A stretch of DNA of 64,000 nt from Patiria pectinifera (Eukaryota; Echinodermata; Asteroidea; Valvatida; Asterinidae), in contig CM057144.1 in assembly GCA_029964075.1 (NCBI GenBank), forward strand, positions 8,951,281 to 9,015,280, read 5' to 3'. The position numbers and the translations under genes are program-made. Positions 1,255-57,960 of this stretch are shown here, piece by piece. Positions within the stretch are counted from its first letter, which is position 1. Each line of letters opens with the position of its first letter. The notes under the pieces are model-generated. The model was not told the DNA's origin, ran no database searches, and saw nothing but the letters and a program-made list of their open reading frames with translations.

Positions 1255-1430
1255 GTCACTTCGCCGAATTTTCACTTCGCCAACAACCAATTCGCCGACA
1301 ACCACTTCGCCGATTTGCCACTTCGCCTAATTACCACTTCACCGATTTGCCACTTCGCCAAATAACCACTTCGCGGAATTACCACTTCGCCAAATTACCA
1401 CCTCGCCGAAGTACCACTTCGCATACTGCA
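1255..1430. repeat. FB-A left-arm tandem array
   Basis: Repeated CACTTCGCC-type units of 16-17 bp, diverged from each other. Open frames across it (translating as HFA and LPLR repeats) are by-products of the periodicity, not genes. Confidence 0.8.
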
Positions 1431-1713
1431 CTACATGCACGAACGCCCATGCTTGCAGACACGCTACGTACAAAAATGTACACGTACGTACGCATGCATG
1501 GGTGCTAAAAAACAAGCTACGTGAAAAAGTTGGCGGAGCTTGGCCGTGAAATTTGGGGTACTTTGGCTCCACTAAAATGGTCATTTCCCCTATTATAAAA
1601 CCCAGATGAAATTAAACATTTCCATAATCGAATTGAAACAGTACTAGGGGTAATAAGAAATAAAAAAAGTTTCAGAAATAAACTATGCTCGACCAAATAC
1701 ATTGTCACCGTGA

Positions 1714-3360
1714 TTAGGCACCATCGATATCGTTGTTCGGCCGATACCGATATATCATTTTTTTTTATATCGATATTATCGATATATCGATATTTTATAC
1801 ATTTAATTTTCAAGGTATTATAATAGGCGTGAATTACATGGAATCTACTCTTTCGTTCGCTTAAAAAAAAGGCCTGACGCCCTGGCACCGAATCTGCGTG
1901 GGGACATATTAAGTCCTGAACCCCAAACAGGACGGGTGATGTAGTCAACACCAGACCCTTACAGATTTCAAGGCATCTCCCTAGTTGTGCAGGAGTGATT
2001 TTGGAATCAATATATCATACAGTACACCTTTCCAGTCACAGTATCAAAAAGTGAAATTCATTTTTTGCACCAAAATGTCAAGGATAGTGCAACAGATGTC
2101 ATCATTAGTGATTCTGCACTATCTTTCTTCAATTTTGTGGACATAAAGTCTGAAATGGTCAATCAATCATTGTTATTTTAGATATTATCAACGAATTATG
2201 TTTTTTAGAGTGCATATTTATGATTATGCAAATAAGGGCGAAGTTTGCAGACCGATGTCAATGGAGAATATACATTTAACTGCAACTAATTACCAAGGGG
2301 CTTTGAGTACTAGTATGAGAGGGGCAATGAAGCGGGCCTACAAACTTCCAACCGACATGGTGTTGCTAGGCAACTGTATATCCATGGTGACAGTGCATTT
2401 TAAAGAGGCTAATGATGGATGGGGGAAGTACAGAACAGAATGAAAATTAATCAAAATACGACACATCACAAGAGGTTATTTTGGAACTCATCATTACTTT
2501 GAGACCCTGAATTCCAGCAAATATCAACTGAAAGTTCCACCGCTCGGCATTTCGTAACGTATATATTCTCAATCACAAACAAAACTGACGCTGGGATTCG
2601 GTGTTTTAATTCCGAAACGGTCGAAATGCTGGTAAATTGTTCTAAGGGTACACCCCTAGACCGTAATGGTGTGATCCACATGATAAATGCTGCGGATAAT
2701 TTGGTATCGCACTGATGCTCCGGGCACTCCTCATGTCCGGATCGTAAGTGCTATTCCAAATTTTTTAGCAGCGTTTATCACGTGGTCTTTTGATTGGCCC
2801 GTCTGATGCCGCCTGCGGTTCTAGCGTCCGTATTACGTACGTTGCCAACATGGGATGGGCCTGGGATACACGCTGCTGTGATATCATCAGCACGTGGTGC
2901 TAGTCTACGTACGTTTGGTTAGCAAATAATTCTCTGTTTTGGAGGATAAATTTGGTGATATTTTCGAGGCAAAGTGTACGCGAATTTTGAGTGCGAGACT
3001 GAGATAGGTGACTGAATTTATTCTTCAAATGTCGTCGTTAACGGTGCCTGGAATATAAGCTACAGGGACATTTTTCACTCAGCGTGAGAACCAACGTAAG
3101 CCGTGTCTTATTAAAAATTAGGGTAATGTGACGATGTACTTTCGTATTTTTTAATAAAGTTCGTTCCTCAGTAGCGATATTTTCGATGTATTTTTCAAAT
3201 ATCGATGTTTTTCGAAGGTTCCATATTTTCGATATTTTCGATATTTCTCCAAAATCCGATAGTTTCGATTTATCGATTTTACCAAATAACTAACATCGGC
3301 GATATCGATATCAAACCAATATCGATAAAATTGATATATTGATATATCGACGGTGCTTAA
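1714..3360. mobile_element. Fold-back element FB-B with ATCGAT-rich arms
   Basis: The ends are inverted repeats: TTAGGCACCATCGATAT at left, and TTAAGCACCGTCGATAT when the right end is read in reverse (two mismatches in 17). Exact 6-bp direct copies of CCGTGA flank it at 1708-1713 and 3361-3366. Just inside each terminus is a run of ATCGAT/ATATCGATA units (1727-1797; 3170-3352). The middle (about 1800-3170) has no recognisable protein; an 81-codon open frame at 2198-2443 resembles nothing I know. The element sits inside FB-A. Confidence 0.7.
3170..3352. repeat. FB-B right-arm ATCGAT array
   Basis: Irregular tandem of TTTCGATATTTTCGATA and ATATCGATA units, each nearly palindromic. The left arm at 1727-1797 is the shorter counterpart. 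Confidence 0.7.
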
Positions 3361-3716
3361 CCGTGAACAGAAGGTCACCACGGCCGGGCGAAAACGATGT
3401 CACCCGTAGGCCGTACCCGTACCCTGCACGCACGGTACGTGTACATCACACCACGCATGCACGGCCAGTCAGTCGCCGCAACCTCGCCGTGCGGCGTGGC
3501 CGGACCACTCACAGGTAGTACGTACACCACGGATCATGTGATGACACTTTGAGTTTCACCCGCCAGATCGAGCTAGATCGAGCGATCTTTTTAACTGGAA
3601 TTATATTATAATGAAATCACATCAAGTTCTAAACACTCTCTATCATAAATCGCGTTACAAAAATATTTTGAAGTGCACAGTGAACCCTTTAAAAAATGCG
3701 CCCCAAAAATAAGAAA

Positions 3717-4640
3717 TCTAAAAATTAATGTGGCCTGACGTTGCGAACTTAGCAAGTTCTTCTTCAGAGGCTAAAACAGAAATGACAGAGGTACATACAT
3801 TAACATGGGGGTGCACACAAACATGCAGGGCTGAAAGAAGAAACACAAAAGGAGGATTGGGTGGGAAAGGTGTGGAAAGATGCAGGGGAGGGTGGATGAG
3901 AGAACAAAGGAACAAAGGGAGATGGCAAACCACAAGGGGTCTGGTGTAAACAGGGGAGGGATCAGAAAGGGGAAGGATCAAAGGTCACAGGGAGTGGGAA
4001 CGGACAAAAGAGTGTGAGAGTGATGATGATGGGGGGGGGGGGGAACAGTATGGGGGTGGAAAGGGATGAAAGATGGGGGAATGATGGGTAAACACAAACA
4101 AGGAAGACCAGGTGGATTATCTGTAACAGAAGACAATGGAGGAAGAAAAGGATTAATCATTCCCTAGTTGGATGTTGAGACCATGTGGTTGAATAGTTCG
4201 AAGACGATTCATCCACACTTTCTCTCTGCTGAGGCGAACTGAGTCCTTGCGATGGCCAAGAGATTCAATGCCCTGCAAAATCATATCAGAAATGGAGTGG
4301 TTAGGCAGGTTGAAGTGATGACCAACAGGGGTGTCTAGTTTCTTGGTGTTGACCGTTGACCGGTGGGCATAGAAACGCTTCTTGAGCGTATTCTTAGTCT
4401 CACCTACATACTGCACTCCACAGACCCTGCAAGAAATGAGATATATGACATTAGAGGTGTTACAAGTGATGTTACCAATGGTTCTGTGGGTAGTGACAGA
4501 AGAGTGGCCAGAAAAGGAGTCAGACTCCTGGATATGAATCTGGCAGACAACACATCTGGAACTGCACTTGAAAGTACCATGCTGGGTGGGAGGGGATGCA
4601 TCTAAGGATGGGACTTCAGCTCGAACAATCAACAAACAAT
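3717..4640 (-). mobile_element. Penelope-like element, 5'-truncated
   Basis: A reverse-strand insertion flanked by exact 14-bp direct repeats, CCAAAAATAAGAAA, at 3703-3716 and 4641-4654. It retains only the GIY-YIG end of the protein and a 3' region of about 430 bp with a poly-G run at 4030-4042. Truncation at the 5' side plus a target duplication is what target-primed reverse transcription leaves. It lies within FB-A and is therefore younger than it. Confidence 0.82.
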
Positions 4641-4641
4641 C
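4153..4641 (-). pseudogene. Penelope GIY-YIG endonuclease domain, C-terminal fragment
   Basis: About 162 residues in one open frame. In order: a Cys-rich linker (FKCSSRCVVCQIH), a Cys pair leading into NVIYLISCRVCGVQYVGET, and then the GIY-YIG core. In this family the core reads YLI-x10-YVGET, followed by LKKRFYAHR with the conserved Arg and His, PVGHHFNLPNHS, and a terminal Glu in REKVWMNRLRT before a HGLN tail. These match the endonuclease of Penelope-like retroelements, which nicks the target and primes reverse transcription. The reverse-transcriptase half is missing. The frame begins inside the target duplication without an ATG, so it is a fragment and not a gene. Confidence 0.88.
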
Positions 4642-5253
4642 CAAAAATAAGAAAATAATTTTCTGAGAAACTTCTAGTAGAGTATATAGGTAGAGATAAT
4701 AATGGTGTATAAGAATTTATGAACTTTGAATAAATTCTTCAGTGTTAAGTTGGATTGTTCCATTATAGATCGAGTCAAGTGTGTCACGTTTAGCTTTAGG
4801 CGAAACGCATCTCTAGCTCTCAGCCGACTTTGTGCCTCATTTCCGGCCACCGTTTTTGAATTTCGGACTAAATTACAAGACACCGACATTGTACACAGAG
4901 GTTAAATTGTAAGCAATGATGTATAGGTACTTCACTGAAGGACTGAATTTGAAGTTTGACAACAACGCATGTACTGTGCGTACATGTACGTTTGTGCATG
5001 CGTGTACGTGTTCATCTTTTCAAACCGTGGACGAAAAATAACAGAGAACAAAAGAGAACGATATCGTCCACGATTCCCAGCATACGTCCGCAATTGGGGT
5101 CGTGTACAAATCATATGGAAGTCTTCCTAAAAAGAGTACAAACAAAAGAGGGACAATAGGACGTCCACGATCGACGGTGAACACACGTTTGCGTGCGTGC
5201 ATGCATGCATTATGTGCTTGCATAGATACATGTATACGTGGGCATACACTTTC

Positions 5254-5392
5254 GGCGAAGTGGTAATTCGGCGAAGTGGTAATCGTCAAAGTGGAAAATC
5301 GGTGAAGTGGTAATTCGGCGAAGTGGCAAATCTGCAAAGTGGTTGTCGGCGAATTGGTTGTTGGCGAAGTGGAAATTCGGCGAAGTGACCGA
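5254..5392. repeat. FB-A right-arm tandem array
   Basis: Inverted counterpart of the array at 1255-1430, reading GGCGAAGTGG in the + direction. Confidence 0.8.
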
Positions 5393-12792: not shown

Positions 12793-15700
12793 CTTTTTTT
12801 TGTTTTCATTAAATGTTTTTATTTTATTTTTTTTTATTTTTGGCTTTTCTGCATGGTTGCGGAAAAGCCTTTCTTTTTGTGCCGGTTTTTTAGCTGTTCC
12901 CAATTTCAATTGGGAACAGCTCTTGTTTTCGTTAAAGTTTTTTTTTTTCCTTTTTTTTTTGGCTTTTCCGCAAAAAAGCGGAAAAGCCTTTCTTTTTGTT
13001 CTCATTTTTTTTCTTTCTTCTTCTTCTTCTTCTTCTTCTTCTTCTTTTTGTCGCCTAAATCCCATAGACTTTGTACACGTTTTTTCTACACGCCACTTTT
13101 GACATTTATCTTTGTCATACGTCATTCAAAGTTAGCATAGTCATAGTCCTTATAGCAGAGATGTGCCCCGAAGAGTGACGTCATGATGACGTCATCGACT
13201 AATTTATTATAGATTTTTGAATATTTAATTTTTCCCATAGACTTTGTACACAAAATTTAAAAAAAAAATTGTCGGTTTTCAAAGGACATTTTCGACTGTT
13301 TGCCAGTAATTCATTTACACCAAACTTTGTTAAAGCAAAGACCCTAATTCAAACAACATTGTGTAATGATGACGTCATGATGACGTCATCAGGTGTTTAT
13401 TTATAGGCAATTAAATTGTGACACTTTTAATATTTAAAAATGCATAAGAAATCAACAGTACGCGTCCGCAGCATTCTGTTGCCGGCAAGTGGTAGAGTAG
13501 GTCAAGGTCTTTATTTCTTTCAGTGTGCGTGAAATCACGTGACCCTTGCTTCCGGTCGAAAAAGGCCCAAACCGGAAGTGGCTTATTATTTGAAAGTGGT
13601 AATAGAAATGAACTTGCTTTCAACGGTGTTAGTCTCTTTGCCAATAGTATTCTTCAAATCATCTAACAATGACGTCATGCAATCTTCAAGCGCCCTCTAG
13701 CGACAGGTTGAAAATTAGCAAAAATGTATTTTGAATAGATGTCTGTGGCGAAGTTTGTCGGAATCGCCTAAATATTGGCGTATATAATGACCTTGACCAC
13801 CTTAAGACGTGTGCGAAGTTTTAGGCAAATGACGTCATCAGACCAGAAGTTATAATGAAAAGACCCTTTTTCATTTGAAAATTCCTGAAAAATCAACCAT
13901 GGCAGTTTTTATATTTGTTATTACTTTAATTGTTGATTGAAGGGTAGGTCTAAAACATTTCAAAGTTTCGAGGCGATAAGCGAACTCGAACATACTCTGC
14001 GCACGCTTAAAACTTCACCTTGACAATACCTCTGCTTCAAAACATGCACAGGACAGGACGTCCACAATGTACATGTACATGCACGTACGTTGTACATAGG
14101 CACATACATCGTATGTCAGTCAGCCTGCAGCGCACGTGTTGCTGAGGTCAAATCCTGTCCACAGTGACCGTTTTAGCCGATTTTCGGCTAACTTTGACAG
14201 ATTTTATGTTCATGCATGCGCATATACAGTGACGTATTATAGCACTTTTGGCATTAATCTTTGTCAGATATCATTGAAAGTTGACATAAGCATAGTCCCT
14301 ATAGCCAAGATGTGTCCCGAAGAGTGACGTCATGGTGACGTCATCAAGTGATTTATTGTGGATTTATGAATAATTAATTGTTCTCATAGACTTTGTACAC
14401 AGCTTTCTCCACAAGTCTTTCCCTATACAAACTGATATATCTTACTGAGTAGTTCTGAACTTCGGCTGAGAATTACTATGAGAAGGAAAAAGAAATCGTA
14501 TTTTTTTACGCCTGTCATTTGATTGAAAATATTCCCAAGAGTTAGAATAGCAAGTAATATTTTATAAAAATGTTTCAGTTTAAAGGAAAATCACGCATTT
14601 AAAGGTGCAGTTTTTCTGCTGTGGGATTTTTAACCTATTGACTTTTCCCCTTTTTTAAGCCACCATTTTCATAACTTGGCGATCTGGAATCGTCATCAAA
14701 GTTACAGCCAAGGAAGATCCTCATACAAAAATTATGCCAAGACTACGATATCATGATGACGTCATCTTCAAGTGATTTATTATGGATTCATGAATAATTA
14801 ATTTTTCTCATAGACTTTGTACACATCTTTTTCCACAAGTCTTTTCCTATACAACACTGATATATCTTACTGAGTAGTTCTGAACTTCGGCTGAGAATTA
14901 TACGGAAGCTTAAAGTGACCATCCGAGTTTCCAAGTTTCCGAGATAATTTATCTCGAACGACGGAATACTGAGATAAAAACATGTCTTTCGTGATATCGC
15001 ATCTCGGAAAAACGTCTTTCCCGAATTTGTATCTCAGAAAGGCGTCTTTGCCCAATATCACATCACGGAATGACATCTTTCCCAGAAATCGTATCTCAGA
15101 AAGACGTCTTTCCCTGATGTCGTATCTCGGAAAGACATCTTCTCCTGGTATCGTATCCCTGAAAGACGTCTGTCCTCGATATCGTATCTCGGAAACGTCA
15201 TTCCTGATATCGTTTCAGAAAGACGTCTTTCCGATATACGATATCAAGGAAAGACGTCTTTCGAGATGATATATGAGAGAAAGACGTCTTAAGATGTTAT
15301 ATCAGGTGAAACGTCTTTTCAAGATAAGATATTAGAGAAAGAACGTCTTTCGAGATGAAAGGCGTCTTTCGAGATACAATATCAGGGGAAACGTCTTTCT
15401 GAGATAATATATGAGAGAAAGACGTCTTTCCGCCAGGAAGACGTCTTTCGGATATCATATCAAGGAAAGACGTCTTTCTGAGATGATATCAGAGAAAGAC
15501 GTCTTTCGAGATGTTATATCATGGAAAGACGTCTTTCAGAGATACGATATCAAGGAAAGACGTCTTTCCGAGATGATATAAGAGAAAGACGTCTTTCCGA
15601 GATGTTATATCAGCAAAAGATGTCCTTCCGAAATGCAATATCAGTGAAAGCCGTCTTTCCGAGATACCATATCAGGGAAAGACGTCTTTCCGAGATACGA

Positions 15701-16863
15701 TATGAGGAAAAGACGTCTTTCCGAGATACCATATCAGGGAAAGACGTCTTTCCAAGACACGATATCAGGGAAACACGTCATAAATATCTTAGTAATCCAT
15801 CTTTCCGAGATAAATCATCAAAGAAACGTGGAAACTCGAATGGTCACTTTAAGCTTCCGTAGAATTACTATGAGAAGGAAAAAGAAATCGTATTTTTTTA
15901 CGTTAACCATTTGATTGAAAAAATTCCCAAGAGTCAGAATATCAAGTAATATTTTATAAAAATGTTTCAGTTTCAAGGCAAATCACGTATTTAAAGGTGC
16001 AGTTTTTCTGCTGTGGGATTTTTAACCCATTGACTTTGTACACGTTTTCAAGCCACCATTTTTATAACTTGGCGATCTGGAATCGTCATCAAAGTTACAG
16101 CCAAGGAACACCCTCATACAAAAATTATGCCAAGACTATGACGTCACGATGACGTCATCACCTATTTTTTTTTATTGATTTTTGAAAATTTACGTACATA
16201 TTGTGAAGTCTTATATCTACAGAAATGTAAGTCCGATTGGGTTGAAACTTGGTATGTGGCTATACCAGGAAGTGTTATAGATTAAAAATGAGCTGACGTC
16301 ATGATGACGTCATCCTGAGATTTTATATGAATATTTATTTTTTTGACCTTTTAGCCATATCTCCCGGATGCAACATGCGAAATGCAAAATTCTTTTTTGC
16401 ATTTGGTCTGTTATGTAATAGCTATTCGTACAAAACTTGAAAAATGTGTGACGTCATCATGACGGAATCAAAATGCCATTTTTCAAAACTTATATAAGGA
16501 AAGGTCCAATTGTCATGAAACTTGGGGGGTAGGTAGTTAATCATACTAGTATGCAAAGTTCGAAATGACGTCACGATGACGTCATCAAAAATTTAAAAAT
16601 AATTGTCGATTTTCAAAGTGCGTTTTCGACTCTTTGCCAGTAATTTATTTAGATCACTCTTTGTCCAAGCAAACACCTTGTACACACGCACATACATCGT
16701 ATTGCCGAGGTGAAATCCTGTCCACAGTGACCGTTTTAGCAGATTTTTCGGCTAACTTTCACAGATTTTATGTTCATGCATATTCAGGGCATATTATTGA
16801 TAAAAAAAAATCATAATGCGGAAAAGCCCTATGTTCTGTTGCAAACAGACATAGATCTCTAGT
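12793..16863 (+). mobile_element. Helentron-like unit 1
   Basis: The unit opens with stacked 5' hairpins: GGCTTTTCTGCATGGTTGCG at 12842, AGCTGTTCCCAATTTCAATT at 12890 and GGCTTTTCCGCAAAAAAGCG at 12959. A (TTC)n tract (13015-13047) and the shared line CCCATAGACTTTGTACACG follow. The body has CRE-type TGACGTCA pairs and the ACTTCCGG segment, and it is split by FB-C. The 3' end is TGCGGAAAAGCCCTATGTTC, the hairpin CTATGTTCTGTT/AACAGACATAG, and CTCTAGT at 16857-16863. The inverted relation between the 5' GGCTTTTCCGCA and the 3' subterminal TGCGGAAAAGCC is the asymmetric terminal inverted repeat described for Helitron2/Helentron elements. No Rep/helicase gene is present. Confidence 0.66.
14901..15861. 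mobile_element. Fold-back element FB-C (961 bp) with GACGTC palindrome arrays
   Basis: The terminal inverted repeats begin TACGGAAGCTTAAAGTGACC and continue for about 40 bp with one or two mismatches. The exact 6-bp duplication GAATTA lies at 14895-14900 and 15862-15867. Related repeat copies without the insertion read GAGAATTACTATGAG once (14468, 26826), which fixes the insertion point. The interior is almost wholly an array of about 31-bp units built on the palindrome AAAGACGTCTTT plus CCGAGATACGATATC. Units in the left third run in the opposite direction to those in the right two thirds. Open frames across it are by-products of the repeat. Confidence 0.85.
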
Positions 16864-24787: not shown

Positions 24788-27700
24788 TGTTTTTGGCTTT
24801 TCCGCAAAGTTGCAGAAAAGCCTTTGTTTTTGTTCTGGTTTTTTTTTTTTCTTTCTTCTTCTTCTTCTTCTTCTTCTTTGTGTTCCACTTCAAATGCCAT
24901 TGACTTTGTGCACGTTTTTTGTCAGTGCCACTTTTGGCATTAATCTTTGCCATACATCATTCAAACTTAGCATAAGCATAGTCCCTATAACAAAGATGTG
25001 TCCCGAAGATTGACGTCATGGTGACGTCATCGACTAATTTATTATAGATTTTTGAATATTTAATTTTTCCCATAGACTTTGTACACAGAAATTTTAAAAA
25101 AATTGTCGATTTTCAAAGGGCATTTTCGACTCTTTGCCAGTAATTCATTTACACCAATCTTTGTCCAAGCAAAGACCCTAATTCAAACAACATTGTGTAA
25201 TGATGACGTCATGATGACGTCATCCGGTTTTTTTTTATGGGCAGTTAAATTGTGACACTTTTAATATTCAAAAATGCATAAGAAATCAACCGTACGCGTC
25301 CGCAGCTTTCTGTTGCCGTCAAGTGGTAGAATAGGTTAAGGTCTTTATTTCATTCAGTGTGCGTGAAATCACGTGACCCTTGCTTCCGGTCGAAAAAGGC
25401 CCAAACCGGAAGTGGCTTATTATTTGAAAATGGTAATAGAAACGAACTTGCTTTCAACGGTGTTAGTCTCTTTGCCGATAGTATTCTTCAAATCATCTAC
25501 CGATGACGTCATGCAATCTTCGAGCGCCCTCTAGCGACAGGTTGAAAATTAGCAAAAATGTATTTTGAATAGATGTCTGTAGCGAAGTTTGTCGGAATCG
25601 CCTAAATATTGGTGTATATGATGACCTTGACCCACTTAAGACGTGTGCGAAGTTTTAGGGGAATGACGTCATCAGACTGGAAGTTATAATAAAAAGACTC
25701 TTTTTCATTTGAACATTCCTGAAAAATCAACCATGGCAGTTTTTATATTTGTTTTTACTTTAATTGTCGATTGAAGGGTAGGTCTAAAACATTTCAAAGT
25801 TTCGATGCGATAAGCGAACTCGAACATACCGTGCGCACACTTAAAACTTCACATTGACAATACCTCTGCTTCAAAACATGCACAGGACAGGACGTCCACA
25901 ATGTACATGTACATGCACGTACGTTGTACATAGGCACATACATTGTATGTCAGTCAGCCTGCAGCGCACGTGTTGCTGAGGTCAAATCCTGTCCACAGTG
26001 ACCGTTTTAGCCGATTTTCGGCTATTTTTGACGGATTTTATGTTCATGCATGCGCATAGACAGGGACGTATTATAGCACTTTTGGCATTAATCTTTGTCA
26101 GATATTATTGAAAGTTGGCATAAGCATAGTCCCTATAGCCAAGATGTGTCCCGAAGAGGGACGTATTATAGCACTTTTGGCATTAATCTTTGTCAGATAT
26201 CATTGAAAATTGGCATAAGCATAGTCCCTATAGCCAAGATGTGTCCCGAAGAGTGACGTCATGGTGACGTCATCAAGTGATTTATTATAGATTTATGAAT
26301 AATAAATTTTTCTCATAGACTTTGTACACAGCTTTCTCCACAAGTCTTTCCCTATACAACACTGATATATCTTACTGAGTAGTTCTGAACTTCAGCTGAG
26401 AATTGCTATGAGAAGGAAAAAGAAATTGTCTTTTTTTACGCCTGTCATTTGATTGAAAATATTCCCAAGAGTTAGAATAGCAAGTAATATTTTATAAAAA
26501 TGTTTCAGTTTAAAGGAAAATCACGCATTTAAAGGTGCAGTTTTTCTGCTGTGGGATTTTTAACCTATTGACTTTGTACACGTTTTCAAGCCACCATTTT
26601 CATAACTTGGCGATCTGGATTCGTCATCAAAGTTACAGCCAAGGAAGACCCTCATACAAAAATTATTCCAAGACTATGACATCATGATGACGTCATCATC
26701 AAGTGATTTATTATGGATTCATGAATAATTATTTTTTTTCATAGACTTTGTACACAGCTTTCTCCACAAGTCTTTTCCTATACAACACTGATATTTCTTA
26801 CTGAGTAGTTCTGAACTTTGGCCGAGAATTACTATGAGAAGGAAAAAGAAATCGTATTTTTTTACGTTTGCCATATGATTGAAAATATTCCCAAGAGTCA
26901 GAATATCAAGTAATATTTTATAAAAATGTTTCAGTTTAAAGGAAAATTACGTATTTAAAGGTGCAGTTTTTCTGCTGTTGGGTTTTTAACCCATTGACTT
27001 TGTACACGTTTTCAAGCCACCATTTTTATAATTTGGCGATCTGGAATCGTCATCAAAGTTACAGCCAAGGAAGACCCTCATACAAAAACTATGCCAAGAC
27101 TATGACGTAACGATGATGTCATCACCTAATTTTTTTATTGATTTTTGAAAATTTACGTACATATTATGAAGTCTTATATCTACAGAAATGTTAGTCCGAT
27201 TGGGTTGAAACTTGGTATGTGGCTATACCAGGATGTGTTATAGATTAAAAATGAGGTGACGTCATGATGACGTCATCCTGAGATTTTATATGAATATTTT
27301 TTTTTTTTGACCTTTTAGCCATATCTCCCGAACGCAACATGCAAAATGCAAAATTCTTTTTTGCATTTGGTCTGTTATGTAATAGGTATTCGCACAAAAC
27401 TTGAAAAATGTGTGACGTCATCATGACGTCATCAAAATGCGATTTTTCAAAACTCATATAAGGAAAGGTCCAATTGTCATGAAACTTGGTGGCTAGGTAG
27501 TTAATCATACTAGTATGCAAAGTTCGAAGTGATGTCACGATTAGGTCATCAAAAATTTAAAAATATTTGTCGATTTTCAAAGTGCGTTTTCGACTCTTTG
27601 CCAGTAATTTATTTAGATCACTCTTTGTCCAAGCAAAGACCTTGTACACACGCACATACATCGTATTGCCGAGATCAAATCCTGTCCACAGTGACCGTTT

Positions 27701-45692: not shown

Positions 45693-45860
45693 CAAGTCTA
45701 CTTCACTCTACTTACCTGTAGAGCAATACTACTTATGCATATTCCCCCTACCGGCAGGTATTTTCCGCTAAGAGTTATATACAATAGCGCCCTCTGGCGC
45801 CCTACCCATAATACCCCGCAGCATGCGTGCCTCGTGAGCGTCCTCTTTTCTCTTAGCGGC
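45693..45860. repeat. D2 left inverted terminal repeat
   Basis: Pairs with 51663-51830. The outermost bases (GTCTACTTCACTCTACTTAC) differ from the outermost right bases, as in other DIRS elements, and reappear inverted at 51519-51541 in the internal complementary region. Confidence 0.82.
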
Positions 45861-51494: not shown

Positions 51495-51845
51495 TATGCA
51501 TAAGTAGTATTGCTCTACAGGTAAGTAGAGTGAAGTAGACTCCCCCCCCCCCACAGAAGTGTGGTTGGGGTCTACGAACGAATACTTACCTGTAGAGCAT
51601 CCCTCCCCCCTACCCCACTCTTCTCGATGCCTTGGGTACTTTGTTGTATTCCGACTTAGCGCTCGAGAAAAGACGACGCTCACGAGGCACGCATGCCGCG
51701 GGGTATTATGGGTAGGGCGCCAGAGGGAGCTATTGTATATAACTCTTAGCGGAAAATACCTGCCGGTAGGGGGAATATGCATAAGTAGTATTGCTCTACA
51801 GGTAAGTATTCGTTCGTAGACCCCAACCACACTTCTGGGGGGGGG
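51495..51845. repeat. D2 internal complementary region and right terminal repeat
   Basis: TGCATAAGTAGTATTGCTCT to GAAGTAGAC (51498-51541) is the inverse of the left outer edge. After poly-C, ACAGAAGTGTGGTTGGGG to CTGTAGAGC (51553-51597) is the inverse of the right outer edge at 51792-51838. The order and poly-C spacer match D1. Confidence 0.82.
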
Positions 51846-53915: not shown

Positions 53916-55170
53916 AATGTCAGCTGATGATGCAGATGACCCTTCGATCCCCTTTAAAGTCCTTCAGGGTGGAGCTTGAGGTGACCTCATTATAAGCAGT
54001 ACATGTATAAGGACATAAGGCTTGAGAATTCTGTACCCACTTATGATCTCGACCGACACGAACATTCTTCGGCAAATTTCGATAGTCAAGACAAAAATCA
54101 GAGAAAACGGTAACGTCAGACCATACACTGCAGCAACACCAACATCGTGCATGTGCTGCCAAGCTGGTCATTAGTCTGCTCCCTTAGGTATGGGATCCCT
54201 TACCGGCCGGTTCCCAGAGGATTGGGACTCCCCTCCGAAGTGGGCGGGCTCGGATTAAGAGAACTAAGTACAAGTCTGACTCCTGGGTCCTGTCCTGAAC
54301 CTAACAAAAGAAGCAGTTTGCAAGGCGATAATCCTCACTGCCAGGGAACAAAAAAAACTGCATATCAAAGGGCGTGCCACCGGTAATCCCTCCCGTGGAC
54401 TGCTATTGTTAAGTGACTGATTACCTCGGTAGGCCTATTGAAAAATACAGTTCAGTTTGAGCGATCAGAAAAACTCAAAGCTTAAAAAAAAAATATATGT
54501 TGTACGTCAAACAATTAGTAAAACCCATATACAGTTACATGTGTTCATGCAAAAAAAATGCTGTCATTCCATACTACATGTATATAGCAAAGAAAATTCT
54601 GCAGATAATCATAGCCAGAGCAAACCAACTGCAAGTTAGTCAGGCGCTTAGCCAAGCCCACCCGCCTCCCGAGCATAACACTTGACTAACAGAGGGGCCA
54701 GTATTCATACCGTTCGGGGGCTACAGAGCAGGCCAAGCCCGCCCGCTTCTAATCTCAAACGGGCATCAGACTTTTCTGTTTAAAATGTGTATGAATTAAC
54801 GTGAATAAGAGGCAAGTGCGGTGTCGCAGTCTTAAATATAAAAAACATCAAATTATTACCACAGGCAAAACAATTCATGTTTGTCATATGGGGAATACTT
54901 TATTTCAATACAGAATGAGGCATTTCGTACATTTGATCAATTCGAGAATATAGATTTCAACGTTCGTATTTCAAATAAGTCACACACAAAAATGCACACC
55001 TTGATCATCTAGCTTTTAACCATTATTAATATATAGAACTTTGCAAACTAGGCAGTTGTATTAAGTTCATTTGTCAAATGATTTCATGCAAAAACGAAAT
55101 ACTTGCATTCTATGAAGCTCAAATCGTACGGAAGCCCGTTTGTGCCAGATTTTAAAAGTGAAAAAATGTT

Positions 55171-55570
55171 TTTATTGCGAAATAACGCAATAGTTTTGCG
55201 AAATAACGCAATAGTATTGCGAAATAACGCAATAGTATTACGAAATAACTCAATAAATGTATTGCGCAATAACGCAATAGTTTTGCAAAATAACGCAATA
55301 GTTTTGCGAAATAACACAAAACTATTGCAAAATAACGCAATACTATTGCGAAATAACGCAATAAATGTATTGCGAAATAACGCAAAAAATGTATTGCGAA
55401 ATAACGCAATAAATGTATTGCAAAATAACGCAATAGTATTGCAAAATAATGCAATAGTATTGCAAAATAACGCAATAGTATTGCAAAATAACGCAATATT
55501 TATTGCGAAATAACGCAATACTTATTGTGAAATAACGCAATACTTATTGCGAAATAACGCAATAGTTTTT
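55171..55570. repeat. FB-D left-arm array
   Basis: Twenty or so 21- or 24-bp units. Because the unit is a multiple of three and lacks stops, long frames (NNAIVLR repeats) run on both strands. They are not genes. Confidence 0.9.
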
Positions 55571-56854
55571 GTTAAATAAACCCAAATTTTTTTTTAGAAA
55601 AAATGCATGAGTCCGAATGGTTGAACCTTTAGGCCTACTTCGGCCTACTTTAGGCCTACTTATAGGCTAATTTTCACCTCATATTTTCTGACAGATAAAG
55701 TTTTTATGGTGTATAAAACCCACCCTGCATGGCGGATCCTGGATTTGTAAAGGGGGTTAGCGGAGGACAAGTAATAAATAGGACCAAAGACCTAAAGCAG
55801 TGACTAGAGATTGTATAACGAGATTGTTATTTCACGAATCTTAGGGAACATTGGGATTTTCTACCCAGTTGGCATTTTTCCAGACGGAAGATGATGGTTA
55901 ATCATCCCAACCATCCCCATAACCCACCACTGCCTAATGACCCCCATAAAAACACGTTTTAGCTTAAAGAACAAATGGAGACTTAAAAGTACAGTTCTTT
56001 TTTAAAAACTTTTAAAAATTCGTTCCGTTCTTTAACAAGCTTAAAAAACACTTTTCTAATTCATATCAGTGTACGGCTTTAGTGATTCTTGATGCAAGGC
56101 ATCCTTTTATCAGTTAAAATTGAATGGACCGGTTATGTAATTTTGGGAGGGGGTTTATTGCAGGGAAAACATTTTGGAAGTTGGAAAATTATTCTTATGT
56201 ATTTAACATTTGTTTAAATGTATTAGTTTTCTTCAGCGTGGTGGAATATTGAGCGTATTATTGATGCAGGTGGAATATTGAGCGTATTATTGATGCATCC
56301 CCCCCCCCCCCAACCCAAACAATCATTCCTCAAAACGTATCATTATATCAGTACAATTTCCACTGCACTGCAATACGAATACACTGTGGATGCACCATTA
56401 AATTCAAGTGATTATTAACATTATAAAGTTTGTTTCCTTCAGGTGCATTGGTAAAACGCAGTACTTGTATTTGCAAGGGAATCATTCAGTTCTATTCTGT
56501 TAGCACCCGTGCATGCTTGGTGGCCATTTTGAGTCGGTTGTGTTTAAAAAAATCAGAACGCACATCAATACGGGGTGGGGGGGGGGGAGGGGGGGGTGAA
56601 AAGATAATAAAGCCCTTAAAACTTGTTGCCCCTTTCCCCCAAAAATGCCACAGAAATGTCTATTATGGCAACGTTTTCTGAAAAGATCAAACATAGGCCT
56701 TCTGGTTTTCAGCACCCCGCCCCTTTCAAGCAGAACCGTACCACGACAAGAGCACAACGTATAAAAACGCAATGACGAAGAACTTCAAGAACATTTCATC
56801 AAAATGGACAAATAAAGGCCAAACTGAACATCCGGGGTGAAGTTTGTACATGAC

Positions 56855-57180
56855 AGTATTGCGTAATTTTGCAATAAGTATTGCGCTATTTCGCAATAAT
56901 TATTGCACTATTTTGCAATAAGTAATGCGCTATTTCGCAATAAGGATTGCATTATTTCACAATACTATAACGTTATTTCGCAAAATAGTATTGCGTTATT
57001 TCGCAGTAGTATTGCGTTATTTCGCAATACTATTGCATTATTTCGCAATACTTTTTGCGTTATTTCGCAATACTGTTGCCTTATTTTGCAATAGTATTGC
57101 ATTATTTCGCAATAGTATTGCGTTATTTCGCAAAACAATTGCGTTGTTTCACAAAACTATTGCGTTATTTCGCAATAAGA
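56855..57180. repeat. FB-D right-arm array
   Basis: Inverted counterpart of the left array, with more unit divergence. From 57223 to 57960 I see only unique-looking intron. Confidence 0.9.
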
Positions 57181-57960
57181 TATTTTTTTACTTTTAAAAT
57201 CTGGCACGAACGGGCTTCCGTAAAATAGAATAAATTTCAGCAAAAATATAATGATAGCCAGGTGTCTTCCAAACCAACCCCAACTCAGATGGGCACTGTA
57301 ATCCTCGAACAATAACCACTAATCTGTTTAGCAGCTATTGTTGTGACCCAGAGGGCCACTCCAGCAGCCAACCGAGTGTCACGCTTGAGTAACCGGGCGG
57401 GAACAGTGTTCGAAGTGGGCGGCAGCTTACTGGGCGGTATCTGCTCGCCCGGTTCTCAAACGGTAGCATTCCGGATCTCATACCTTACATATTGCGCTAA
57501 TTAAAAAGCATTTACAGGTTCCAGATACATGACTATCGCTCGCTCAGTCTGGCTTCCAGACGCACAATTACAAAATTACAACACCGTCTGCAAATGGTGC
57601 CGACTAAATTTGGCCCACAAAACATGGCCCATTTGAATGAGTGTCCGTAGACAACTTGAGCTAATATGTCATAGATTGGGCATAGCGTTCTGCCGCCTTA
57701 CAAAAAACACCATATTGATAACAACAAAAGAAACGGGCAAACAGATCCTCGAATCATACGCTTACGAAAACCACTGACTGGAAAAAGTAACAATTTCCGC
57801 GCTGTGAATTTGTCGACCATCTCCCACAATGCACTGGGAAAAATGAACTCTCCGTGGCAAACTCTTGGTGGCGCACTGCATTGTGTATATCGCCAGATTG
57901 CCAAAACAGCCTTGGTTTTTGTAAAGATATTTGTTTGAACAGCCATTGTTTATGTTAAGA

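Follow-up and report, generated by a model that had tools for sequence, protein, structure and literature searches.

FB-C, a gene-less element of Patiria pectinifera, shares its ends and palindromic array with a transposase-bearing relative of probable IS3EU/GingerRoot kind

The window analyzed here, a stretch of 64,000 nucleotides from contig CM057144.1 of Patiria pectinifera (positions 8,951,281 to 9,015,280), contains a gene-less element, FB-C, at window positions 14901..15861 (no strand assigned), which aligns over its full length with its own reverse complement at 73%. The left tip, TACGGAAGCTTAAAGTGACCAT (14901..14922, + strand), returns on the right in inverted orientation with all 22 bases (15840..15861, - strand), so that both tips read TACGGAAGCTTAAAGTGACCAT, and 51 of the 60 outermost bases match between the arms. 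The exact 22-mer has 202 copies in the genome and its reversed control has none. According to the alignment of FB-C with its reverse complement, the element consists of two array-filled arms without a spacer, in which a unit of ~31 bp centered on GGAAAGACGTCTTTCC is repeated; the left part of this palindromic array (14993..15216) has the linker GATATCGTATCTC and the right part (15217..15779) has it reversed (GAGATACGATATC), with the turning point at ~15216 as read by eye. Open frames within FB-C reach at most 126 amino acids and are read-throughs of the array. FB-C is flanked by exactly matching copies of the target GAATTA (14895..14900 and 15862..15867), which is single in the empty sister units. 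Three empty sister sites were found on the + strand at 14377..14575, 26306..26505 and 26733..26931 (93.5%, 92.5% and 95% to the joined flanks of FB-C, respectively).

A second element with TACGGAAGC ends, FB-D, lies at 55127..57222 (no strand assigned) and carries 21-bp arrays of its own (55173-55566 and 56855-57184). Its tips are TACGGAAGCCCGTTTGTGCCA and TACGGAAGCCCGTTCGTGCCA, its flanks AAATCG/AAATAG agree at five of six positions, and 55 of 61 alignment columns match between its arms. The FB-D unit, 21 bp of TATTGCGAAATAACGCAATAG, is an imperfect palindrome unlike that of FB-C. The nine bases TACGGAAGC start the tips of both elements and occur four times in the window, compared with 0.22 expected, a count reached by none of 100 shuffled windows. 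A preliminary description of this DNA had already noted the nine-base terminus common to elements with different palindromic arrays, as well as the exact GAATTA duplication with empty sister copies; both observations were confirmed, with three empty units (92.5-95%) instead of the two given there.

The window's own genome (613.5 Mb, 1020 contigs) was searched for the shared tip, with positions taken from the first 100 matches listed per pattern, which for TACGGAAGC were all on contig C1. Genome-wide, TACGGAAGC occurs 2833 times and the reversed word 2277 times. Eleven neighboring pairs of TACGGAAGC copies less than 3 kb apart were in the order + then - among the matches listed and two were in the order - then +, while random placement of 100 places gave a mean of 0.24 and a maximum of 3 inward pairs in 10,000 trials; for the reversed word, no + then - pair within 3 kb was seen by eye among the matches listed (first 13.5 Mb of C1). 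Target duplications were present at 10 of the 11 inward pairs, comprising seven exact 6-bp duplications (TTAAGG, GAATTA, GTAAAT, GCTTTC, CGGGGC, GTTTAA and CGCAGT), one agreeing at 5/6 and two of 7 bp (CGTAGGG and GATTCAT); L028 has none. Five array types could be distinguished among these pairs, namely F1 (CTCGCCGCGGCGAG; L017, L020 and L023), the FB-C type (GGAAAGACGTCTTTCC; L018, with L028 as a short relative), F3 (AAGTCATAATTATGACTT; L019 and L024), F4 (TTCGCCCGGGCGAA; L022) and F5 (a 61-62-bp unit with GCGATAATTTATCGC; L025-L027), and FB-D provides a sixth. In viral_contigs, neither the exact FB-C tip nor its array unit was found, and a loose form of the FB-D tip matched eight stretches, each with a single tip that had no partner in the DNA inspected, which were put down to chance; the FB-D unit was not found in genome_contigs.

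In the excerpts of the literature covered here, IS3EU elements of fungi are described with 6-bp duplications, terminal inverted repeats (TIRs) of >30 bp and TAYGG..CCRTA ends (Kojima 2025, PMC12730594), and IS3EU elements in an earlier account with TA..TA ends and duplications usually of 6 bp (Kojima 2023, PMC10045372); in the covered part of PMC8268682, the annotation DNA/IS3EU is given to two satellite DNAs of oyster. Given these published ends and duplications, a transposase with an integrase core was therefore sought. The integrase core PF24764 had 87 matches in the window's genome, the best at E 1.9e-69, and 14 prokaryotic control genomes had no match. Among the 30 of these 87 loci whose surroundings were inspected, 13 have long arrays near the gene, representing six lineages (A-F). 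The D-to-D spacing is 58 residues in all six, and the D-to-E spacing is 40 as measured in lineages A-D, with E and F alike by alignment; three array-less proteins that were aligned (L064, L066 and L068) have a D-to-E spacing of 34 and cluster together. An HTH_21 domain precedes the integrase core in lineages A and B, although the match is weak and below the curated cut-off. Among solved structures, no convincing sequence relative of the transposase was found (one match, E 0.11). Proteins with PF13683 (at least 100 matches) were also considered as the machinery and rejected, as by eye the six loci inspected (L035, L039, L042, L049, L057 and L058) resemble retrotransposons of Gypsy type; 0 of 30 PF13683 loci had a pair of TAYGG tips with a duplication. 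Contig C7 (44.85 Mb, ~7% of the genome) carries 38 of the 87 PF24764 matches by hand count.

In lineage A (L080 and L081), the tip and the 31-bp array of FB-C adjoin a PF24764 gene. The copy at C3:6108026-6124264 has FB-C's 22-bp tip at both ends, 16.2 kb apart, arrays of the 31-bp unit on either side (21 copies on one and at least 12.6 on the other) and exact GGATCG at both flanks. Its transposase frame of 453 amino acids is open, matches PF24764 at 2.3e-36 and has the D-58-D-40-E arrangement; the Pfam scan of the lineage A transposase gave rva_4, rve, HTH_21 and DDE_Tnp_1, and no THAP. Furthermore, the interior contains a RING finger frame (L099:4955-5272, + strand, 1.2e-12), and the transposase and RING frames were the only ones recognized in the inspected part, which covered frames of at least 90 amino acids in all but ~5 kb of the 16.2 kb and included no polymerase search. 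In the second copy (G000:C7:16085856-16146510), FB-C's tip and array again adjoin the gene, and the tips are 60.7 kb apart with exact GTAACG flanks that lie within an F5-type array, a target that weakens the duplication as evidence. This tip pair may represent a giant element, an element with many nested insertions, or two elements.

In lineage B (L086, L087 and L091-L093), the tip TAYGGAAGTGTAGATAGGACATGG adjoins the gene. Two copies of 7480 and 7510 bp, on C21 and C15, are 98% alike and have the tip TACGGAAGTGTAGATAGGACATGG at both ends, arrays of 12-15 copies of the 21-bp palindromic unit TAATTCGTACGTACGAATTAC at both ends, and a PF24764 transposase with D-58-D-40-E between their own ends; the far tip of a third copy, on C1, was not found. 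On the opposite strand, lineage B carries a 698-amino-acid frame with a HECT domain (3.1e-7, L094:1138-3231, - strand), so that related transposons have different ubiquitin-ligase domains, HECT in lineage B and RING finger in the FB-C type. One end was seen in each of the remaining lineages, which all combine a TACG tip and a PF24764 gene with an array of their own: 31 bp in lineage C (L085 and L090), 30 bp in D (L089), 23 bp in E (L088) and 53 bp in F (L083 and L084). In lineages C and D the tip reads TACGA, a variant.

A tip consensus was drawn from ten families, counting FB-C and lineage A once and excluding lineage F, whose tip is one base shorter. T1, A2, C3, G4 and G8 are present in 10/10 families, A6, A7 and C9 in 9/10 and G5 in 8/10; positions 10-18 are variable, followed by C20 and A21 (9/10 each). 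The layout of the FB-C end is TACGGAAGC, about ten variable bases and usually CCA or ACA. Seven of the ten families were found via the exact nine bases, and their agreement there is by construction; the independently found tips have one or two changes within the nine bases in lineages C, D and E, and one in lineage B. A literature search for TACGGAAGC gave no transposon paper among the matches listed.

It is reasonable to suggest that FB-C moved by cut and paste as a gene-less transposon of IS3EU/GingerRoot type, whose array is part of a lineage-specific end common to its transposase-bearing relative, and we assign this reading a probability of roughly 0.85. It builds on the ends and duplications, on the tip and array shared around a transposase gene, and on the passenger copies considered below. 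The TACGGAAGC ends would be the sites of cleavage and joining by a DDE integrase-like transposase, giving duplications of 6 and sometimes 7 bp, and just inside the tips, as part of the long inverted ends, would lie a long array whose unit differs between lineages and is palindromic in most of them. Slippage or unequal exchange could rapidly lengthen and shorten such arrays, tip and array might diverge together with the transposase, and FB-C itself may be the remnant of a coding copy which lost its genes by internal deletion, leaving arm against arm.

Several points weigh against this reading. Seventeen of the 30 inspected PF24764 loci (L064-L079 and L082) have neither an array within 1.5 kb nor recognized ends, and no transposase-bearing partner was found for F1, F3, F4 or F5. 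Lineages C-F were spotted by array first and tip second, which biases the statement that all six lineages have arrays, and the palindromic character of the unit is not evident in lineage C and weak in lineage D. Duplications are missing at L028 and at FB-C-type pairs at C8:3.81 Mb and C7:41.2 Mb; in lineage B, the flanks of the C21 copy (GATTTT/CATTTT) agree at 5/6 and the C15 copy has no clear duplication. PF24764 was chosen as a profile that probably covers IS3EU-type proteins. The elements look like IS3EU by their ends, duplication length and transposase type, the features on which this probable placement is based.

The preliminary description favored a different relation between ends and arrays, in which one transposase acts on the tips alone and the interiors, including the arrays, are freely swapped between elements. 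The nine tip bases common to elements with at least six different arrays would fit such swapping, as would the variability of tip positions 10-18 next to the constancy of positions 1-4 and 8 in the ten families. However, the combination of FB-C's tip with its array is found again around a transposase gene on C3 and C7, the longer tip sequence and the array travel together in F1 (three copies), F3 (two) and F5 (three), and several diverged transposase lineages are present, which makes free swapping unlikely. FB-C is the window element for which this could be tested, and there the array looks, as far as sequence comparison tells, like part of the lineage-specific end and not like a freely swapped interior, since the transposase-bearing relative carries FB-C's array. 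The claim of freely replaced interiors was consequently not supported, and that of a single transposition machinery survives in part: there is one transposase type, split into six or more diverged lineages that have TACG tips. The suggestion that TACGGAAGC-ended elements with 6-bp duplications and unlike arrays form one group is upheld by the 6- or 7-bp duplications at 10 of 11 pairs, and the check proposed for it, a search for inverted pairs with duplications followed by one for a transposase with those ends, was positive on both counts (11 pairs; the C3 relative). The statement that no described family was known could not be maintained, because TAYGG..CCRTA ends with 6-bp duplications correspond to IS3EU as published, according to the excerpts covered (PMC12730594 and PMC10045372).

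The likeness to IS3EU/GingerRoot extends to the termini (TACGG..CCGTA in FB-C and FB-D, and in 11/11 genome pairs by search design), to the 6-bp duplication (exact in FB-C, 5/6 in FB-D and exact GGATCG in the C3 relative), to TIRs of >30 bp (arms of 51/60 in FB-C and 55/61 in FB-D) and to a DDE integrase-like transposase, which is located between such ends on C3, C21 and C15 and is not encoded by FB-C or FB-D. The elements differ in their cargo, a HECT frame in lineage B and a RING finger frame in the FB-C type, and in their long lineage-specific subterminal arrays, none of which is described in the portions of the IS3EU literature covered. Polintons also combine 6-bp duplications with an integrase-like protein, but they are large virus-like elements with a DNA polymerase B and other ends. 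Long array-filled inverted ends are otherwise known from foldback elements. Tetris of Drosophila virilis, in the part of its description covered (PMC4079207), is gene-less, has tandem repeats inside long inverted ends and has outer ends in common with a different element, DAIBAM; Galileo of the P superfamily (PMC3688188, as excerpted) has long, internally repetitive inverted ends with several transposase binding sites. It is nevertheless highly improbable that FB-C and FB-D belong among the Mutator- or P-type (Galileo) foldback elements and have nine bases in common by chance. Tetris has 220-bp repeats and 8-10-bp duplications, for which its authors suggested Mutator (PMC4079207, same excerpt), compared with 6-7 bp here; Galileo has other ends and a P-type THAP-domain transposase, and the scan of the FB-C-type transposase gave no THAP; 11 inward 9-mer pairs were observed against 0.24 expected; and what such ends enclose as transposase is a DD40E protein with an integrase core.

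The arrays are predicted to act as clusters of sites to which the helix-turn-helix part of the matching transposase binds, an interpretation which we favor slightly, given that every coding copy seen at both ends (C3, C21 and C15) has arrays at both, that FB-C and its coding relative have the array in common, that in Galileo the repeats of the long TIRs are bound by the transposase (PMC3688188, in the text covered) and that the unit lengths of nine groups are near multiples of 10.5 bp (P 5e-5 versus uniform, in a post hoc test with one period rounded from 22-24). A literature search gave no paper that combines subterminal palindromic arrays with transposase binding. The palindromic core is more conserved than the linker in 8 of 12 array segments, a comparison biased by the picking of units by core similarity, and in the four segments of lineage B the linker is conserved as much as the core or more. 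Among 1607 pairs in the palindrome halves of the 12 segments, there were 202 one-sided changes, 3 double complementary and 11 double non-complementary ones, with 13.7 double changes expected under independence. Since only 3 of the 1607 pairs have double complementary changes, base pairing as such is not preserved, and the idea that the arrays are kept as hairpins was found unsupported. The number of array units changes rapidly, as in the F1 copies, whose interiors are 92-99% alike but whose left/right arrays have 10.1/5.2, 13.1/32.2 and 5.3/4.7 units.

Alternatively, the arrays could lack a function and simply arise, much like satellites, when palindromic DNA near the ends undergoes slippage or template switching, with the transposase tolerating the by-products. 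This is a serious competitor, to which the widely differing copy numbers of near-identical F1 copies, the uncompensated changes in palindrome halves and the linker conservation in lineage B all lend weight, together with the TIR tandem repeats of Tetris in Drosophila virilis that have grown into satellite DNA (PMC4079207, as excerpted). The arrays at both ends of all coding copies seen in full, the less variable core in 8/12 segments (with the bias of unit picking) and the unit lengths near 10.5-bp multiples (post hoc) argue against it, and binding sites are held somewhat more likely than mere slippage products. Our results also raise the possibility, offered tentatively, that the array is an evolving address, in which each transposase lineage and its DNA-binding part evolved a new unit of about two, three or more helical turns in ~10-35 repeats; one catalytic end, TACGGAAGC, would then serve many mutually blind lineages within a single genome, and gene-less copies retaining the matching array would parasitize only their own lineage.

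FB-C has mostly spread as a passenger, as its placeable copies derive largely from amplification of the Helentron-like host and not from transposition of FB-C. The exact junction between FB-C and the Helentron-like unit has 74 copies in the genome (control 0), 12 neighboring junction pairs are 3.75-4.0 kb apart with such units on several contigs, and up to 148 of the 202 FB-C 22-bp tips are passengers at a single Helentron site. L018 is 97.7% identical to the window over 3 kb, and of five further FB-C tip pairs, three occupy this Helentron site and differ by a single base between the two duplication copies, and two have no duplication. A single insertion of FB-C at GAATTA in a Helentron-like unit was probably multiplied with that unit. 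L028, L112 and L113 have FB-C-type tips in different places with a common left flank, GGCGGTAGAT, and a near-identical right flank, GACAG, without duplication, and they are probably a second passenger insertion inside another repeat. In the window, Helentron-like units occupy 12000-37000 with repeats rich in TGACGTCA.

These findings would connect a class of unusual "foldback" elements with an integrase-like superfamily, and they suggest a route by which palindromic satellite-like arrays could spread, as transposon ends and here also as passengers of Helentron-like units. With a similar catalytic end and different arrays beside the genes, the six lineages furthermore offer a natural series in which to test how lineages are kept apart by their transposases.

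FB-D, whose tips are similar to those of lineages C and D (TACGAAAGCCC), yielded no transposase-bearing partner; the FB-D tip search, in which 40 of 200 candidates were scored, gave 224 matching pieces, many of them array pieces. L100, an FB-D-related copy of 4809 bp on C4 with exact CATATG duplications, was rejected as its coding partner and represents FB-D with an insertion that is Penelope-like by eye; it contains a 735-amino-acid frame resembling a Penelope-like reverse transcriptase by eye, and C864 has an FB-D-type tip pair spaced similarly to that of L100. FB-A (window 1255-5389) was set aside as a group member, as its ends begin with GTCACTTCGCC; this region has inverted arrays of a 16-bp unit, TTCGGCGAAGTGGTAA, flanking a frame which by eye resembles a Penelope-type GIY-YIG domain. 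Finally, 144-bp inverted repeats at 45709-45852 and 51665-51808, 98% complementary and 5.8 kb apart, enclose GC-rich frames and possibly belong to a DIRS-like or other large element.

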